NCBI RefSeq assembly: GCF_014281965.1 | Contig: NZ_JACFTB010000003.1 | Span: 62,001 to 126,000 of the forward strand | Reading direction: 5' to 3' | Source: Rhodococcus sp. BP22 | GTDB lineage: Bacteria; Actinomycetota; Actinomycetes; Mycobacteriales; Mycobacteriaceae | DNA length: 64,000 nucleotides | Shown: positions 3,879-37,379 of the stretch, piece after piece | Numbering within the stretch: position 1 is the first letter of the stretch | How the letters are laid out: the number at the start of each line of letters is the position of its first letter | Translations under genes and position numbers: made by a program | Notes under the pieces: model-generated | The model's database searches: none | What the model saw: the letters and a program-made list of their open reading frames with translations, nothing else | What the model was told of the DNA's origin: nothing

Positions 3879-6800
3879 ATGAGCGCCACCATGAACAGTG
3901 GATTGACAGATGCTTTGATCAAGACTCGTCGCTTCTTTCGGAGCAACCAGCCTGTGTCTGCCGATGGGCGGACGCTGCTCGCGATCGGCGGGCGTTCGGG
4001 CGATTCTTTCTACCGGGATCGTTGGAGTCACGACAAAGTGGTCCGGTCGACCCACGGGGTGAATTGCACCGGATCGTGCTCCTGGAACGTCTACGTCAAA
4101 GACGGCATCATCACGTGGGAGACCCAGGCCGTCGACTATCCGACTGCCGGGCCGGACAAGCCCGAGTACGAGCCGCGCGGGTGTCCTCGCGGTGCATCCT
4201 TCTCCTGGTACACCTACTCGCCGACGCGAACCCGGTATCCCTACATTCGTGGGGTACTGCTCGAGATGTACCGGGAAGCGAAGTCCCGGTTGGAGGATCC
4301 AGTACTTGCCTGGGCCGACGTGACCGAGGATCCTGAGCGCGCCGCGCGCTACAAGCGCGCGCGAGGCAAGGGCGGCTTGGTGCGTGCCACGTGGGACGAG
4401 GCCATCGAGATAGTGGCGGCAGCGCACGTGCACACGATCCGGAAATGGGGTCCCGACCGTGTCGCCGGGTTTTCTCCCATTCCCGCGATGTCGATGGTCT
4501 CGCACGCTTCCGGTGCCCGCTTCGTGAACCTCATCGGGGGATCGATGCTGAGCTTCTACGACTGGTACGCGGACATGCCGGTCGCTTCCCCGCAGATGTT
4601 CGGGGATCAAACGGACGTCCCCGAATCCGGGGACTGGTGGGATTCGAGCTACCTGATCATCTGGGGTACCAATGTGCCGGTCACTCGGACACCGGACGCG
4701 CACTGGATGATCGAAGCCCGCTACCGCGGACAGAAAGTCATCGTCGTCTCACCGGACTTCGCCGACAGCACCAAGTTCGCCGACGAGTGGCTCCCTGCCG
4801 AGCCTGGTACCGATGGCGCTCTGGCGATGGCCATGGGTCACGTGATCCTCAAAGAGTTCCACGTCGACCGGCAGACTCCCTACTTCACCGGTTACGTCAA
4901 GAAATTCACGGATCTGCCGTTTCTCGTCACTCTCGACGAAACACACGATCCGGACGGCGAGGTCACATATACCGCCGGAAAGTTCTTGACCGCATCGGAC
5001 CTCACCGACGAGATAGCGAGTGAGCAGGAGAACTCCGAGTTCAAGACGGTCATGGTCGACGCCAGAACCAACCAACTCGTCGTGCCCCCTGGCACGCTGG
5101 GCCATCGCTACGGTGAAACCGGTGAGGGCAAGTGGAACCTCGATCTCGGCGACATCGATCCGACACTGTCTCTGATCGACAGTGCGGATCAGTACGTCCC
5201 GATCGATATGCCGCGCTTCGATGCCGGCCAGGGCAATGTCGGCGTGATTCGACGCGGCGTACCAGTACGACGCGTCGCAGGGAGACTCGTCACCACGGTC
5301 TTCGACCTGATGCTCGCCCAGTACGGCGTCGGTAGACCCGGGCTACCCGGGAGCTGGCCCAGCGGTTACGACGACGCAGAATCCCCCTACACGCCCGCGT
5401 GGCAAGCCGCGATCACCGGAGTCTCGGCGGACGCTGCCGAACGTATCGGCCGTGAGTTCGCCCAGAACGCCGAGGACTCCAAGGGCCGGTCGATGATTCT
5501 GATGGGTGCGGGCACCAATCATTGGTTCCATTCCGACACCATCTATCGGACCTTTCTGACGATGACGACGATCACGGGATGCCAGGGCGTGAACGGTGGC
5601 GGTTGGGCGCATTACGTCGGCCAGGAAAAGGTCCGTCCGCTGACCGGGTACAACCAGTTGGCCAATGCCCTGGACTGGGTACGGCCGCCTCGAAACATGG
5701 TGCAGACCGCCTACTGGTACCTGCATACCGACCAGTTCCGCTACGACCAATTCGGTGCCGACACGCTGACAGCGCAGACCGGCAAAGGCCAACTGGCGGG
5801 CAAGACGACTGCCGACGTGATCGCACAGTCCGCGCGTCTGGGCTGGATGCCGTCCTATCCCACGTTCGATCGAAATCCTTTGGTGATCGGTGCTCAGGCC
5901 AAGCAGAAGGGGCAGTCGGCCAAGGACTATGTCGTCGAGGAGCTCAAGGCCGGGCGGCTGAATTTCGCGGCCGAGGATCCTGATGCACCGGAGAACTTTC
6001 CGCGGGTTCTATCGTTGTGGCGGTCGAATCTGTTCGGATCCTCGGCGAAGGGAAACGAGTACTTTCTCAATCACCTCCTCGGCACGTCACACACCGTCAG
6101 CGCCCAGGAGACTGCGCAGCGCTTCCGACCGCAGGACGTTCGCTGGCATGACGAGGCTCCCATCGGCAAGCTCGACCTTCTGACGACCCTCGATTTCCGG
6201 ATGACGAGTTCGACGCTTTTGTCGGACATCGTGCTGCCGGCTGCGACCTGGTACGAAAAACACGACCTGTCGACGACGGATATGCATCCGTTCGTCAACT
6301 CGTTCAATCCCGCGATCTCCCCGCCGTGGCAGTCGCGTACCGATTGGGATGCGTGGCAACAGATTTCCCAGGTATTCAGCAAGCTCGCGGTGCGTCACCT
6401 CGGTACGCAGACCGATGTGGTTGCCGCACCTCTGACCCACGACACCCCGGATGCGATGGCAGTACCGCATGGGAAGGTCCGGGACTGGAAGTACGGAGAA
6501 TGCGAACCGGAGCCCGGTGTCACGATGCCGAAAATTATCGAAGTCGAGCGGGACTACACGGCGATCGGTGACAAGATGCGCGCCGTCGGGCCGTTGCTGG
6601 ACACCTTGGGTGCGACCACCAAGGGAGTCACTTTCGATCTGAGCCGAGAGATCGCTGATCTCAAAGAGAAGAACGGTGTCGTGCGCGGTGGTCCGGCCGA
6701 TGGCCGTCCCGACATTCTTCGTGACATCCAGGCCTGCGAGATGATCCTGGCCCTGTCCGGCACCACCAATGGAAGGCTCGCCACTCAGGGCTTCAAGACA

Positions 6801-30104: not shown

Positions 30105-31517
30105 TCACCGAACGCGATACGGCGAGACCGAGCTCCGATGCTCATCGATATCGAGGTCTTTACCGAGCGGGGGGAACGCACGTTGCGGGCAGTTCGACCG
30201 CTCGCACACTCGGCAACCCGCACCGATCGGGGTGGCCACAGCCGAACCATGTAGATCGAGCCCATCGGCGTAGACCAACCGAGTTGCATGCCGGAGCTCG
30301 CACCCCAAGCCGATGGCGAACGTCTTGGTCGGCTGACCGTAACGCGCGGCCCGTCGCTCCACCGTGCGGGCAATCCACAGGTAGCTACGCCCGTCCGGCA
30401 TCTCGGCGATCTGCGTCATGATCTTGCCCGGGTAGGCGAAGGTTTCGTACACATTCCACAGTGGGCACGTACCGCCGCTGGAAGAAAAGTGAAAGCCGGT
30501 CGCCGACTGTCTCTTGGACATGTTTCCGGCACGGTCGACACGGACGAAAGAGAATGGAACTCCACGAAGCTTGGGCCGTTGAAGCGTCGAAAGGCGGTGG
30601 CAGACAGTCTCGTAGCTGACCGAGAAGAAGGCAGACAATCGCTCGATGTCGTAGCGAAATTCCTCTGCCACATCATGGAACTGGCGATACGGAAGAACGG
30701 TGGCAGCAGCGAAATAGTTGGCGAAGCCCAAGATCGCGAGCTTCTTCGATTGTTCGCTCGTGAAACCGCCCTCCTCCACCATTTTGTCCAAGAGATCGGC
30801 GCATTCGAGGTAAGCCAACTCTGCTGCGTACTTGAAAACCTTCTGCCCGCCCGAGAGGTGCGTGGAAATTTCCAGGACCCGGGTACGCGGATCGAATCGG
30901 TGCAGAACATTCTCACCGAGGTCGATTCGATTGACGATCTGCACCTCGTGGACCGTTTCGAGTCGGCGGGCGATCTCACCGCCGACGTCGGCGCGATGGA
31001 ATCGGATACGAGAGGTCAACTCCTCTGCAGCGGTATCCAATTCGTGTAAATAGTTCTGCCGCTGGTAGAAGTAGTCGCGTACTTCCTCGTGCGGTTTGCT
31101 GATGGAGCCGCTGCCACTGCCGTCGCTGAATCGCTCGTCGGTAGCGGCCGCGAGCTGAGCCGTCGTATTGCGGTACCGGCGGTGCATGTTCACCATTGCC
31201 CGAGCCAACTGCGGATGAGAAGAGACCATCTGTGCGATCTCGTGAGCGTCGGCAGCGATGCCCATGTCCTGATCCAGGGCGACCTCTCGAAGCTCGGCGA
31301 CGAGTCTGGTGTCGTCCTCCGAGGAGAAGAACGAGGTATCGACACCGAAAACCTCGGAAATACGAAGCAGCACGGGCACCGTCAGTGGGCGGACGTCGTG
31401 TTCGATCTGGTTGAGATAGCTCGCCGAGATCTCGAGCTGACCAGCCAGTGCAACCTGGCTCATCTTGCGCTCGGACCGAAGCTGCCGCAGCCGCACGCCG
31501 ACGAACGTTTTGGACAT
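30105..31517 (-). CDS. ramB: RamB-type short-chain fatty-acid/acetate regulator
   Basis: A 470-aa XRE-family regulator. The N-terminal helix-turn-helix (VRLRQLRSERKMSQVALAGQ, then LEISASYLNQIEHDVRPLT) spans about residues 8-50. An IrrE/ImmA-like central part and the C-terminal domain with two Cys pairs (CRVCERSNCPQRAFPPLG) follow, which is the ScfR/RamB architecture. In Corynebacterium and Mycobacterium, RamB controls isocitrate lyase and acetate genes. Here it lies about 1 kb from aceA, as Rv0465c lies near icl1 in M. tuberculosis. Confidence 0.92.
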   Translation of the reverse strand: MSKTFVGVRLRQLRSERKMSQVALAGQLEISASYLNQIEHDVRPLTVPVLLRISEVFGVDTSFFSSEDDTRLVAELREVALDQDMGIAADAHEIAQMVSSHPQLARAMVNMHRRYRNTTAQLAAATDERFSDGSGSGSISKPHEEVRDYFYQRQNYLHELDTAAEELTSRIRFHRADVGGEIARRLETVHEVQIVNRIDLGENVLHRFDPRTRVLEISTHLSGGQKVFKYAAELAYLECADLLDKMVEEGGFTSEQSKKLAILGFANYFAAATVLPYRQFHDVAEEFRYDIERLSAFFSVSYETVCHRLSTLQRPKLRGVPFSFVRVDRAGNMSKRQSATGFHFSSSGGTCPLWNVYETFAYPGKIMTQIAEMPDGRSYLWIARTVERRAARYGQPTKTFAIGLGCELRHATRLVYADGLDLHGSAVATPIGAGCRVCERSNCPQRAFPPLGKDLDIDEHRSSVSPYRVR

Positions 31518-32494: not shown

Positions 32495-33784
32495 ATGTCG
32501 ACCACCGGCACCCCGAAGACCACCGCCGAGATCCAGCAGGATTGGGACACCAACCCTCGCTGGAAGGGCGTGACGCGTAATTTCACCGCAGAACAGGTTT
32601 CCAAGCTGCAGGGCACCGTGGTAGAGGAAGCAACACTTGCCCGCCGCGGCTCCGAGATCCTGTGGGACCTCGTCACCAACGAGGACTACATCAACTCGCT
32701 CGGTGCACTCACCGGCAACCAGGCCGTGCAGCAGGTTCGCGCCGGCCTGAAAGCCATCTACCTCTCCGGCTGGCAGGTTGCCGGCGACGCCAACCTCTCG
32801 GGCCACACGTACCCGGACCAGAGCCTCTACCCGGCCAACTCGGTGCCGACCGTCGTTCGCCGCATCAACAACGCACTGCTGCGCGCCGACGAGATCGCCA
32901 AGGTCGAGGGTGACACCTCGGTCAGCAACTGGCTCGCACCAGTGGTCGCCGACGCCGAAGCAGGATTCGGTGGCGCGCTGAACGCTTACGAGCTGCAGAA
33001 GGCCATGATCGCTGCCGGTGCCGCAGGTGTGCACTGGGAGGATCAGCTCGCTTCGGAGAAGAAGTGCGGCCACCTCGGTGGCAAGGTGCTCATCCCGACC
33101 CAGCAGCACATCCGCACCCTGACCTCGGCTCGCCTCGCGTCCGACGTCGCCGATGTCCCCTCGGTCATCATCGCCCGCACCGACGCCGAGGCTGCAACCC
33201 TCATCACGTCCGATGTGGACGAGCGCGACGTGGAGTTCCTCGACGGAACCCGCACCGCAGAAGGCTTCTACGGCGTCAAGAACGGCATCGAGCCGTGCAT
33301 CGCTCGTGCGAAGGCTTACGCACCGTACGCCGACCTCATCTGGATGGAGACCGGCGTTCCGGACCTCGAAGTTGCCAAGCGCTTCTCCGAGTCGGTTCGC
33401 AGCGAATTCCCGGACCAGATGCTCGCCTACAACTGCTCGCCTTCGTTCAACTGGAAGGCGCACCTGGACGACGCGACCATCGCCAAGTTCCAGAAGGAGC
33501 TCGGCGCGATGGGCTTCAAGTTCCAGTTCATCACCCTCGCCGGATTCCACTCGCTCAACTACGGCATGTTCGACCTGGCGCACGGTTACGCCCGCGAAGG
33601 CATGACGGCGTTCGTCGACCTGCAGGAGCGCGAGTTCAAGGCTGCCGAAGAGCGCGGCTTCACCGCCGTCAAGCACCAGCGTGAGGTCGGCGCCGGCTAC
33701 TTCGACACCATCGCCACCACGGTCGACCCGAACACCTCGACCGCAGCGCTGAAGGGCTCCACCGAAGAGGGCCAGTTCCACTGA
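32495..33784 (+). CDS. aceA: Isocitrate lyase
   Basis: Cleaves isocitrate to glyoxylate and succinate, the first step of the glyoxylate bypass needed on acetate and fatty acids. The active-site motif KKCGHLGGK places the catalytic Cys at residue 191. Further family elements are [20 protein letters not shown] and [13 protein letters not shown]. At 429 aa it belongs to the short ICL1 type of Actinobacteria. It is followed after 44 bases by fadB2, the same order as icl1-fadB2 in M. tuberculosis (Rv0467-Rv0468). Malate synthase is not in view. Confidence 0.98.
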
Positions 33785-33828: not shown

Positions 33829-34713
33829 GTGACCAGCGAGAAAATTCAGCGAGTCGGCGTTATCGGCATCGGGCAGATGGGCGCCGGAATTGCCGAGGTG
33901 TGCGCACGCGCACACGTCGATGTGCTGGTCTACGAACAGACACGTGAGCTGACGGCTGCAGGACGCGCACGCATCCTGCGGTCGTTGGACCGCGGTGTCA
34001 GCAGCGGCAAGATCACCGAGCGTGAACGTGAGCAGGCAGCCTGGCGGTTGCGGTTCACCTCCGACCTCAGTGACTTTGCCGACCGTCAGCTCGTTGTCGA
34101 GGCCGTTCTCGAGGACGAGAAGATCAAGGCCGACATTTTTGCCGAGCTCGATTCGGTGGTGACGGACCCGAATGCAGTACTCGCGTCCAACACGTCGTCG
34201 ATCCCCATCATGAAGCTGGGAATTGCGACCAAGTCACCGGATCGTGTCGTCGGTATGCATTTCTTCAACCCGGTGCCCGTGCTCCCGCTCGTCGAGCTCG
34301 TCACCACTCTCAAGACAAGTCAGGCTGTCGCCGAGCGTGCGGAGAAATTCGCCAGTGAAGTACTCGGCAAGCAGGTCGTCCGGTCTGCAGACCGTTCTGG
34401 TTTCGTCGTCAACGCTCTGCTGGTGCCGTACCTGCTCTCGGCCATTCGCATGGTCGAGTCCGGGTTCGCCACCAAGGAAGACGTGGACAAAGCGACAGTG
34501 CTCGGCCTCGCACATCCTATGGGGCCCTTGGCATTGGCCGACCTCGTCGGACTCGACACCGTCAAGTCGATTGCCGACTCGATGTACGAAGAGTTCAAGG
34601 AACCGTTGTTCTCCGCCCCGCCGCTTCTGCTACGTATGGTCGAGGCAGGGCTGGTCGGCAAGAAGACCGGATCAGGTTTCTACCAGTACGAGAACGGTCG
34701 CGTCGCAAAATAG
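33829..34713 (+). CDS. fadB2: 3-hydroxybutyryl-CoA dehydrogenase
   Basis: A 294-aa NAD-dependent 3-hydroxyacyl-CoA dehydrogenase. The Rossmann motif is GVIGIGQMGAGIAEV (residues about 9-23), the catalytic region is SNTSSIPIMKLG and GMHFFNPVPVLPLVELV (His of the His-Glu pair), and the C-terminal domain has ALVGKKTGSGFYQYE-type sequence. It acts in short-chain beta-oxidation or polyhydroxybutyrate-related metabolism. GTG 33829 is preceded by the ribosome site AAGGAG. It is probably co-transcribed with aceA. Confidence 0.96.
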   Translation: MTSEKIQRVGVIGIGQMGAGIAEVCARAHVDVLVYEQTRELTAAGRARILRSLDRGVSSGKITEREREQAAWRLRFTSDLSDFADRQLVVEAVLEDEKIKADIFAELDSVVTDPNAVLASNTSSIPIMKLGIATKSPDRVVGMHFFNPVPVLPLVELVTTLKTSQAVAERAEKFASEVLGKQVVRSADRSGFVVNALLVPYLLSAIRMVESGFATKEDVDKATVLGLAHPMGPLALADLVGLDTVKSIADSMYEEFKEPLFSAPPLLLRMVEAGLVGKKTGSGFYQYENGRVAK

Positions 34714-34730: not shown

Positions 34731-34770
34731 GTGAGTGGGAATACGTTGTCGGCAACGTATTCCCACTCAC
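34731..34770. terminator. Perfect hairpin between fadB2 and metE-like gene
   Basis: An 18-base perfect stem (34731-34748 with 34753-34770) closes a TCGG tetraloop. It follows the fadB2 stop by 17 bases and ends 36 bases before the metE-like start. It most likely terminates aceA-fadB2, but its closeness to the next start also allows a regulatory role. There is no U-run. Confidence 0.8.
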
Positions 34771-34806: not shown

Positions 34807-37107
34807 GTGGCGAGTAGCGCAGCCGAATTCGGTTCGAGCATCCTGGGATACCCGAGAATCGGCCCGCGGCGAGAATTGAAGCGCGCACTCGAGACCTACT
34901 GGAACGGTAAGTCGACGCCTGCCGCCCGCGCGGCACTCCAGTCCGTCGGTCGTTCCCTTCAGGAAGATACCTGGGACGAACTCCATGCAACCGGGTTGAC
35001 ACAAGTCCCCGGAAACACCTTCTCCTTCTACGATCATGTCCTCGACGACGCATTGCTTTTCGGGGCAGTTCCGACGCGCTTCGCCCCGCTCGAAGGGGGG
35101 ATGCATCCGCTCGATTTCTACTTCACCGTTGCTCGCGGCAAGCCGGATCTCCCGCCGCTGGAGCTGGTGCGGTACTTCGACTCCAATTACTTCTACCGCC
35201 AACCCGAGATCGACGAGTCGACGCCGTTCTCACTGCACGCGGAGAGCCTGCTGGATGAGTTCGATCGGGCGAAGGCCCGCGGTATCGAACTGCGCCCCGT
35301 TGTGCTCGGCCCGGTATCGCTGCTGTTGTTGTCCAAGGCTGGATCTTCAGCAGCGCAAGGATTCTCCCCGCTCGATCGGCTGGGGGACCTGCTTGCGCAG
35401 TACAGTGCCCTCTTCGAGTTGCTTGCACTGCGAGGTGCCACCTGCATCCAGCTCGACGAGCCCGCATTCACTGCTGAACGAACAGCTGAGGAACTGGCAG
35501 CGCTCGACCGCGCGTACACCTCCCTGTCGACGACGGCGTTGCGTCCCCGACTTCTCGTGACAGGTCAATACGGGTCTCTCGGATCTGCGCTGCCGATTCT
35601 CGCAGCCACCAAGGTCGAGGCAATCGGGCTTGACCTCGTCGCAGGCAGACTCGAGCCGGAAGAGCTCGCCGCCATTGCTGGAATGAAACGCAAACGCCTC
35701 TACGCGGGAGTCATCGACGGCCGCACGGTGTGGCGTGCCGACCGCGTCGTCGTGCTCGACTACCTCGAGCGACTGAAAGAGGTGTGTGAAGACCTCGTCG
35801 TCTCGACGTCGTCGACTCTTCTGCACGTTCCGTACGACGTGCTGAGCGAGTACGACATCGACGGCAACGTCGCCGACCGTCTTGCGTTCGCGAAGCAAAA
35901 AGTCGGCGAGGTCGTTGCCCTGGCAAAGGCGCTCACCGACGGGCCGTCGGACAAGTGGCGCAAGAAGCCGACCGAGGTGCACTTCAAGCAGAAGCACGCG
36001 GTGCGGCACCGGGTCTACAACGTAACGCCCGACATGCGGGTTCGACAGCCGTACTCCGAGCGGAAGATCGCGCAGCGCAAGAAGCTGAATCTTCCGCTCG
36101 TGCCCGCCACCACCCTCGGTTCGTTCCCGCAAACTTCGGCAATGAGGCAGGCGAGATACGAACTGGGACAAGGCCGTATCGAAACCGCTGACTATCGCGC
36201 ACTCGTCGAGGACGAGATCGAGCAGGTCATTCGGCTGCAGGAGGACATCGGGCTCGACGTTCTGGTGAACGGCGAGGTGGAACGCAACGACATGATTCAG
36301 TTCTTCGCCGAAGCGCTCGAAGGGTTCGCCACGACGACCAACGGGTGGGTCCAGACGTACGGATCACGATGCGTGCGTCCGCCCATCCTGTATGGAGACG
36401 TGGCAAGGCCGAAACCGATGAGTGTCGAGTGGACAGCGTTCGCGCAGTCGTTGACGGATAAGCCGGTCAAAGCAATCCTGACCGGACCCGTGACGATGCT
36501 CGCCCGTTCGTACGTGCGGAAGGACCTCCCACTGCACGAGGTGGCCGACCAGGTTGCCCTGACCATTCGCGACGAGATCGCCGATCTCGAGAAAGCCGGT
36601 ATCGGGATCATTCAGGTCGACGAGCCGGCGTTGCGTGAACTGCTGCCCTCGCGTGAGAAGGGCCGCAAAGAATACCTCCGTTGGTCGGTCGAGGCGTTTC
36701 GGCTGGCGACGTCGGGTGCAAAGGCCGAGACCCAGATTCATACGCATTTGGGGTACTCCACTCGTGCGTCGGTGGTCGACGCGATCGAGAACCTCGATGC
36801 CGATGTCACGGCGATCGTGGCAACACGATCCATCGACTGGGTTCTCGGTGCTTTGCAGGAGAACGTCCTCAGCCATGGAGTCGGTCCTGGCGTGTACGAG
36901 AGTCGTTCGGCGCGTATCCCCGACATCGACGAACTCGACGAGCTACTGACACAGGCAGCCGCGACGATCGACATCGACCGGTTGTGGGCCAATCCCGACG
37001 GCGGCCTCAAAACGCGTAAGTATTGGCAACTGGAACCTTCGTTGCGTAACTTGGTGGCAGCGGCGCGACGGGTGCGCCGACGCGCAGAACAGGGGACAGC
37101 AGAGTGA
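34807..37107 (+). CDS. MetE-family protein lacking most zinc ligands
   Basis: At 766 aa it aligns along its full length with cobalamin-independent methionine synthase: LGYPRIGPRRELKRALE at the N-terminus, VDEPALREL and NGEVERNDM in the catalytic domain. In E. coli MetE zinc is held by H641, C643, E665 and C726. Here H647 is kept (HTHLGYS), but the matching positions are Gly649, Val671 and Gly732 (NPDGGLKTR instead of NPDCGLKTR). Without zinc, homocysteine activation by the normal mechanism is unlikely. GTG 34807 is preceded by AAGGAA; no cobalamin riboswitch is seen upstream. It may be a paralogue with another role; a canonical metE or metH is expected elsewhere. The gene is intact. Confidence 0.9.
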   Translation: MASSAAEFGSSILGYPRIGPRRELKRALETYWNGKSTPAARAALQSVGRSLQEDTWDELHATGLTQVPGNTFSFYDHVLDDALLFGAVPTRFAPLEGGMHPLDFYFTVARGKPDLPPLELVRYFDSNYFYRQPEIDESTPFSLHAESLLDEFDRAKARGIELRPVVLGPVSLLLLSKAGSSAAQGFSPLDRLGDLLAQYSALFELLALRGATCIQLDEPAFTAERTAEELAALDRAYTSLSTTALRPRLLVTGQYGSLGSALPILAATKVEAIGLDLVAGRLEPEELAAIAGMKRKRLYAGVIDGRTVWRADRVVVLDYLERLKEVCEDLVVSTSSTLLHVPYDVLSEYDIDGNVADRLAFAKQKVGEVVALAKALTDGPSDKWRKKPTEVHFKQKHAVRHRVYNVTPDMRVRQPYSERKIAQRKKLNLPLVPATTLGSFPQTSAMRQARYELGQGRIETADYRALVEDEIEQVIRLQEDIGLDVLVNGEVERNDMIQFFAEALEGFATTTNGWVQTYGSRCVRPPILYGDVARPKPMSVEWTAFAQSLTDKPVKAILTGPVTMLARSYVRKDLPLHEVADQVALTIRDEIADLEKAGIGIIQVDEPALRELLPSREKGRKEYLRWSVEAFRLATSGAKAETQIHTHLGYSTRASVVDAIENLDADVTAIVATRSIDWVLGALQENVLSHGVGPGVYESRSARIPDIDELDELLTQAAATIDIDRLWANPDGGLKTRKYWQLEPSLRNLVAAARRVRRRAEQGTAE

Positions 37108-37379
37108 GCAAGTCGAAGAAGTCCGGGGGACTCGTTCCGAAGGTGTTCGGAATTGTATTGGCGGCGACGGGTGCCGCGCATTTCGTCGTTCCAGAGGCGT
37201 TCGAAGGAATCACCAAGCGTCCTTTCCCTCGCGACACCAGGACCTGGATCAGCCGCAACGGAGCTACCGAACTAGCTGTCGGTGCTGCAATTGCGTACCC
37301 CAAGACTCGTAAGATCGGCCTCATCGGGCTCGGCACGTATGTCGGCTGGCTGGGTCTCAATATCGCCCGCAACGGGTAG
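37104..37379 (+). CDS. Small DoxX-like membrane protein, 91 aa
   Basis: The start GTG overlaps the stop of the metE-like gene (GTGA), so both are co-translated. The sequence begins SKSKKSGGLVPKVFGIVLAA, with a hydrophobic segment, then ATGAAHFVVPEAFEGITKRPF and two more short hydrophobic stretches near residues 52-66 and 72-86. The A-A-H-F-V-x-P-E-x-F pattern resembles small DoxX-type membrane proteins. Function unknown; coupling to the zinc-less MetE homologue is noteworthy. Confidence 0.7.
   Translation: MSKSKKSGGLVPKVFGIVLAATGAAHFVVPEAFEGITKRPFPRDTRTWISRNGATELAVGAAIAYPKTRKIGLIGLGTYVGWLGLNIARNG

Follow-up and report, generated by a model that had tools for sequence, protein, structure and literature searches.

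A MetE-like protein family of Rhodococcus and its relatives that lacks the zinc site of methionine synthase and probably does another job

The locus and its product

The window analyzed here is a 64,000-nucleotide stretch of Rhodococcus sp. BP22 (contig NZ_JACFTB010000003.1, positions 62,001 to 126,000). In it, the genes for isocitrate lyase (aceA) and 3-hydroxybutyryl-CoA dehydrogenase (fadB2) are followed by a perfect hairpin and then by a paralogue of cobalamin-independent methionine synthase, referred to here as MetE2, whose stop codon is overlapped by a small DoxX-like open reading frame (ORF). The gene for the acetate-metabolism regulator RamB is divergent from aceA (Table 1).

Table 1. 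Features of the metE2 locus and codons of the MetE2 active site (window coordinates)
Feature	Position	Strand	Basis or remark
ramB, acetate-metabolism regulator, divergent from aceA	30105..31517	-	NF038139, 862.7 bits (cut-off 700)
aceA, isocitrate lyase, conserved upstream neighbor	32495..33784	+	profile match, locus comparison
fadB2, 3-hydroxybutyryl-CoA dehydrogenase, immediate upstream neighbor	33829..34713	+	profile match, locus comparison
Perfect hairpin, 18-bp arms (34731-34748/34753-34770), no T-run	34731..34770	+	between fadB2 and metE2; lineage-variable
metE2, MetE paralogue without zinc site, 766 aa, GTG start	34807..37107	+	frame, Pfam/NCBIfam, alignment
Ser439 codon, retained homocysteine-site residue	36121..36123	+	alignment
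Glu490 codon, homocysteine site	at 36274	+	alignment
Arg567 codon (pterin-stacking Trp; T. maritima Trp539 position)	36505..36507	+	alignment; role of Trp539 from PMC539065
Asp605 codon, homocysteine site	at 36619	+	alignment
His647 (kept zinc ligand) and Gly649 (Cys643 position) codons	36745..36753	+	CAT at 36745, GGG at 36751
Val671 codon (Glu665 position)	36817..36819	+	GTG
Arg700 codon (catalytic His694 position)	36904..36906	+	alignment
Gly732 codon (Cys726 position)	37000..37002	+	GGC
Small DoxX-like ORF (earlier reader's name), overlaps metE2 stop	37104..37379	+	ORF list, locus comparison

The original prediction described a full-length MetE match in an intact frame, and both points hold. 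The 766-codon frame is uninterrupted, both MetE barrels (Pfam Meth_synt_1, PF08267, and Meth_synt_2, PF01717) are matched over their full length, Arabidopsis 1u1h aligns with residues 10–759, and Pfam finds no domain beyond these two barrels. It shares 51% identity with the canonical MetE encoded in the same genome. Judged by fold and descent, MetE2 is a MetE. It passes the MetE equivalog model NF003556 (927.8 bits against a cut-off of 541) but falls short of that of TIGR01371 (863.5 against 929.95), which may explain why databases name it MetE. As a side observation, disagreement between these two models could perhaps serve as a simple flag for misnamed proteins.

Replacement of the zinc site and retention of the amino acid pocket

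The active site was compared in a residue table of 212 non-identical paralogues, 29 canonical MetE proteins, and E. coli MetE (NC_000913); the paralogue rows are weighted towards Rhodococcus, Nocardia, and Dietzia, and some of them are partial, with at most three gap rows per position. Alignment to the E. coli protein places His641, Cys643, Glu665, and Cys726 opposite His647, Gly649, Val671, and Gly732 of MetE2, as had been predicted from the DNA alone, so that the histidine is the one zinc ligand kept. The Cys/Glu/Cys set is found in 0/212 paralogues, whereas all 29 canonical proteins have it along with the other standard residues. Cysteine at 649 or 732 and glutamate at 671 are absent from all 212 paralogue rows, each position having a single gap row. 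A sequencing error at the three ligand codons, which would have undone the original prediction, can be excluded on this ground, and the same table together with the purifying selection described below rules out error or a pseudogene more generally. The original prediction had asked whether the Gly/Val/Gly set is conserved in a clade. Two of the three positions are nearly fixed, valine or isoleucine occupying position 671 in 211/212 paralogues and glycine position 732 in 210/212. Position 649 is not fixed, and there glycine is found in only 90 of the 212 (T 64, S 27, A 11, N 9, P 9, E 1, gap 1).

Two further replacements had been overlooked in the original prediction, which was to that extent incomplete. 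In Thermotoga maritima MetE, His672, the equivalent of E. coli His694, has been described as the candidate general acid, and Trp539 stacks on the pterin (PMC539065). The histidine, part of the DIHSP motif and present in 29/29 canonical proteins, is Arg700 in 210/212 paralogues, while the tryptophan is Arg567 in 203/212 (G 4, L 3, and F 2 in the rest). A new set of near-invariant residues, consisting of Arg567, Ser699, Arg700, Val671, Gly732, and Trp678, characterizes the paralogues. Position 649 drifts while 671, 700, and 732 are nearly fixed, a pattern that fits a newly formed site better than a dead one.

The amino acid pocket presents a different picture. The residues equivalent to Ser439, Glu490, and Asp605 bind the carboxyl and amino groups of homocysteine in the T. 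maritima structure (PMC539065), and among the paralogues Ser439 and Glu490 are kept in 212/212 and Asp605 in 211/212, the remaining row being a gap; Asp495 and Met496 are also unchanged. Basic residues in the groove for the folate tail are similarly kept (Arg22 and Lys25 in 209/212, with three gaps; Arg521 and Arg524 in 212/212). Glu611, equivalent to the pterin-binding Glu583, persists in 204/212 paralogues, whereas the equivalents of Lys104 (R 160, K 27, A 17, and others) and His111 (H 161, Y 29, F 13, L 7, and others) vary, which suggests that folate binding has been only partly dismantled.

Because three of the four zinc ligands, a defining feature of methionine synthases, are replaced, MetE2 would fall outside that class by function. 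Canonical MetE shares its two-barrel fold and differs in three of the four zinc ligands, the catalytic histidine, and the pterin tryptophan. The core methionine synthases MesA–D are single catalytic barrels without the N-terminal domain, unlike MetE2, which has both barrels. Uroporphyrinogen decarboxylase belongs to the same barrel superfamily by structure, but its identity to MetE2 is 11–15% over about 295 residues and it has no second barrel; the likeness is one of analogy. In the literature that was read, the only zinc-less MetE relatives reported are MesB-like proteins of Chloroflexales, which have lost their zinc ligands (FSHG, YCDQ, YREQ) and for which another function has been proposed (PMC7857596). 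Loss of zinc ligands is common to these proteins and MetE2, but the former are of the core type without an N-terminal barrel and occur in another phylum, whereas MetE2 is a full-length, two-barrel protein. A search of titles and abstracts in the open-licence part of PubMed Central returned no zinc-less full-length MetE from actinobacteria.

Distribution and selection

Paralogues that could be separated from canonical MetE by a score threshold were found in 183/401 sampled genomes of the family and in 24 of 31 genera. A class-wide draw of 394 genomes yielded four, all within the family; three further matches outside the family, over the threshold but close to it, were considered as possible members and rejected as canonical proteins (WHCEHC). 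In a signature survey of 83 loci (80 named, among the matches listed, plus three more; 45 canonical and 38 paralogue), the six diagnostic positions read W-H-C-E-H-C in all 45 canonical loci and R-H-x-V/I-R-G in 36 of the paralogues. The only other form, F-H-G-V-H-G, occurs in two Hoyosella loci (L140 and L142) with Phe567 and His700. These are nested within the paralogue clade, so that their histidine is probably a reversion.

A tree of 53 chosen sequences (22 paralogues, 31 canonical) recovered the paralogues as one group with support of 100/100 on a stem of 0.78. The group lies nearer to Pseudonocardiaceae-type MetE than to the canonical MetE of its own genera, a placement with moderate support (94/92) that points to either an old duplication or acquisition of the gene from outside. 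Values of dN/dS (NG86) between the window's metE2 and its relatives were 0.08–0.10 within the genus (five comparisons) and 0.15–0.18 across genera (three comparisons, dS exceeding 1 in the wider pairs); canonical metE gave 0.08–0.11 within the genus (six comparisons). By this measure, the paralogue is under purifying selection like a normal MetE. Eighteen genomes possess the two genes together; in the 122 of their 153 pairs where paralogue identity is below 80%, mean identity was 69.0% for the paralogue versus 71.0% for canonical MetE, with the paralogue being the better conserved protein in 34/122. The catalytic barrel is looser in the paralogue (73.0 versus 81.5) and the linker is tighter (64.1 versus 52.5).

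These data are hard to reconcile with a slowly decaying or passively retained duplicate that has no selected function, a most improbable reading that the selection and identity comparisons have already largely refuted and that the wide distribution and newly fixed residues also oppose, even though ligand loss and clean absences from close relatives would fit it.

Genomic neighborhood

Of 62 loci compared, some of them representing a species twice, two at contig ends or on short contigs were left out, and the order and strand aceA-fadB2-metE2 were found in 60/60 of the complete remainder, with a gap of 14–565 nt (median 118) between fadB2 and metE2. The genes downstream vary. For canonical metE, fadB2 was found nearby in 0/52 loci (7 + 45) within the stretch covered. 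The original prediction had correctly placed the gene after aceA-fadB2 and a perfect hairpin, the 18-bp arms of which were confirmed; the linkage across genera had gone unseen. Part of that linkage would be inherited position, and the whole of it could be, since aceA and fadB2 are also adjacent in four genomes of other genera without a paralogue match (L237, L239–L241). Within the window's own genus, eight genomes without the paralogue all retain aceA-fadB2. Such clean absence from close relatives argues that metE2 is dispensable and accessory.

The predicted coupling of metE2 to the DoxX-like gene did not survive the comparison. Among the loci compared, that gene is limited to the window's genus, and six of the eight genomes without metE2 show aceA-fadB2-DoxX-ADH, where fadB2 and DoxX are direct neighbors; its persistence there shows it to be independent of metE2. 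These six loci (L230–L235) have the small gene lying between fadB2 and an alcohol dehydrogenase. No DoxX gene was found within 1.5 kb downstream in the other two (G002 and G005), and the ORF in the window has no Pfam or NCBIfam match.

Many of 23 folded loci have hairpins in the gap from fadB2 to metE2, some of them resembling terminators, which argues against simple co-transcription. Their sequence differs among close relatives, and in one locus (L068) the hairpin is absent. Near-identical Rhodococcus genomes (L218 and L219 are among the loci compared) have one of two quite different stems at this place, as though one stem had been swapped whole for the other. Comparison by eye of 17 upstream regions, with some genomes represented twice, revealed little shared sequence beyond the fadB2 coding and ribosome-binding stretches, and no common rhodococcal operator stood out.

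Methionine synthases of the same genomes

The source genome was found to possess both of the genes whose presence the original prediction had proposed to check, namely a canonical MetE with the HCEC ligands (L002), under a cobalamin riboswitch, and a full MetH. Among 48 chosen genomes in which the paralogue is the sole MetE match, a subset of such genomes, MetH is present in 48/48. In 47 of these it exceeds the cut-off, and in the last, a Dietzia-like genome, metH is split into two adjacent pieces (G039:C1:1747257-1750774). Forty-eight control genomes comprised 25 with canonical-scoring MetE only, 15 with both kinds, and 8 with neither. MetH was found in 32 of the 40 with canonical-scoring MetE and in all 8 with neither. 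The eight controls lacking MetH all have a MetE match; seven are from one genus (g3) and canonical-scoring, and the eighth (G111) combines the paralogue with another MetE match, one assigned to the canonical kind by its score. The difference in MetH absence (0/48 versus 8/40) gives a Fisher p of 0.0012, weakened by the clustering in one genus. Judged by this gene content, MetE2 is probably not the genome's methionine synthase. The idea, put forward in the original prediction, of a retained and repurposed MetE gains support from the presence of canonical MetE and MetH alongside it, from its single clade, from dN/dS of 0.08–0.18, and from the new near-invariant residues. The two roles it had suggested, altered methyl-acceptor use or regulation, are both conceivable.

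Riboswitch control of the paralogue was also considered and rejected, with no match at the gathering threshold in the window or in five other loci (L036, L042, L053, L218, and L219). Two cobalamin riboswitch matches were seen around a single canonical metE in two instances (L028:1128-1344 and 4672-4889; L204:1171-1339 and 868-995).

A published MetE that is probably the paralogue

Proteomics work of 2021 on Rhodococcus qingshengii IGTS8 reported that a MetE, IGTS8_peg5907, was 190- to 273-fold more abundant with dibenzothiophene than with sulfate and, when induced, ranked in the top ten of the sulfur proteome (PMC8557817). It was published as an ordinary methionine synthase with two cysteines and seven methionines (PMC8557817). 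The same counts are found in paralogue P0019, which has two cysteines and seven methionines besides the initiator, and the cysteine count is unlike that of 120 canonical relatives of a Rhodococcus MetE among the matches listed, none of which (0/120) has two or fewer. Exactly two cysteines were found in 13/170 paralogues among the matches listed. P0019 is carried by five genomes at 99.5–100% and a sixth at 96%; in one (L219) the frame runs on upstream (1030 aa, 6 Cys), with two cysteines within the protein itself. The canonical MetE of six large Rhodococcus genomes with a two-cysteine paralogue has four cysteines and seven methionines, so the methionine count does not discriminate. These six genomes, which we take to represent the R. 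erythropolis/qingshengii group, all carry a cobalamin riboswitch upstream of canonical metE (6/6). The IGTS8 medium contained 0.2 mg/l cyanocobalamin (PMC8557817), and the canonical copy should therefore have been repressed. On the cysteine count and this cobalamin argument, as distinct from its own sequence, IGTS8_peg5907 is probably the zinc-less paralogue.

The cause of the induction may also differ from that supposed. Dibenzothiophene was supplied to 0.5 mM from a 100 mM stock in ethanol, while the methods mention no ethanol for the sulfate cultures, and the main text of the report names neither isocitrate lyase nor AceA (PMC8557817). The part of a further paper that was consulted gives no MetE levels (PMC9426449). 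From the dilution of the stock, ethanol in the dibenzothiophene cultures is calculated at 0.5%. Cells metabolize ethanol via acetate and the glyoxylate shunt. The protein may consequently have been induced as the product of the third gene behind aceA and fadB2, an explanation no less likely than a sulfur response, and the published increase may be a response to the solvent.

Possible functions of MetE2

We think it rather probable that MetE2 has been neofunctionalized into a metal-free protein that binds an amino acid and probably serves as an enzyme in C2/one-carbon metabolism. According to this proposal, the protein would have left zinc-dependent methionine synthesis and now form a distinct MetE subfamily. 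Conservation suggests that an α-amino acid would still be bound in the old homocysteine pocket by Ser439, Glu490, and Asp605, with Met496. Its side chain, or a second ligand, could be held as an anion by Arg567 and Arg700 together with His647, in place of the zinc-held thiolate, and the old folate-tail groove (Arg22, Lys25, Arg521, and Arg524) may accommodate a polyanion such as a folate polyglutamate or possibly CoA. MetE2 would act as a metal-free enzyme of C2/one-carbon metabolism, and ethanol or acetate would induce it jointly with aceA-fadB2. A more specific version is conceivable, if tentative, in which the MetE fold transfers a one-carbon (methyl) group to or from an amino acid without metal in cells growing on ethanol, acetate, or fatty acids. 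The protein would then be a zinc-independent methionine synthase or would catalyze a novel folate-linked reaction connected with the glyoxylate shunt. The sulfur-starved condition and the high abundance reported for IGTS8 would also fit a methionine-related role (PMC8557817).

Another, fairly unlikely, possibility is that MetE2 is a non-catalytic sensor or pseudoenzyme whose ligand would be methionine, homocysteine, or folate polyglutamate and whose role would be to regulate or buffer C1/C2 metabolism. An invariant amino acid site beside lost zinc ligands, general acid, and pterin tryptophan is what such a protein might look like, and both the drift at position 649 and the accessory nature of the gene are consistent with it. 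Most of the other replacements are nevertheless fixed (Arg700, Gly732, and Val/Ile671), no additional Pfam domain is present, and a place in the top ten of the induced sulfur proteome, as reported for the presumed orthologue (PMC8557817), would be unusual for a sensor.

Invariance of the homocysteine-site residues could also mean that MetE2 still transfers a methyl group to homocysteine or a similar thiol, whose thiolate Arg700/His647 would hold in place of zinc, and contributes to methionine synthesis under some condition. Among the matches listed, only paralogues show the cysteine count of the hugely induced MetE, and its rise while methionine was being made from the sulfur of dibenzothiophene (PMC8557817) would agree with this. 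Such a zinc-free synthase is nonetheless distinctly unlikely, given that MetH is kept in every genome checked that lacks canonical MetE (48/48 with the paralogue, 8/8 without), that all eight MetH-less controls have a MetE match, the paralogue-bearing G111 having a second one, and that the pterin tryptophan and catalytic histidine are replaced. The cyanocobalamin in the IGTS8 culture would, moreover, have allowed MetH to work (PMC8557817). To our knowledge, every known methionine synthase uses zinc, a rule that a zinc-independent one would break. A zinc-sparing paralogue made under zinc shortage, which loss of the ligands fits in outline, is very improbable, as the general acid and pterin tryptophan are also gone, beyond the needs of a metal swap, the neighbors are aceA-fadB2, and the medium that induced the probable MetE2-type protein had added zinc (PMC8557817).

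Returning to the preferred reading of a repurposed, metal-free protein, MetE2 represents a widespread, well-conserved family that lacks the metal site needed for methionine synthesis and probably serves a different purpose, and in one published experiment it may have been mistaken for the genuine enzyme. Of the sampled family genomes, nearly half carry a database-named methionine synthase of this kind, so that pathway models, essentiality predictions, and possibly one interpretation of proteomics data may be built on the wrong enzyme. Should the ethanol explanation hold, the biodesulfurization result that methionine synthesis switches to MetE would be a solvent effect. The family also offers an intriguing natural experiment, in which a zinc-thiolate site was rebuilt and the chemistry presumably changed while the amino acid pocket stayed frozen.

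Finally, one of the 120 canonical relatives mentioned above (L208, in genome G255) is a canonical-type MetE with arginine at the Cys643 position, which could reflect decay, error, or a second independent loss.
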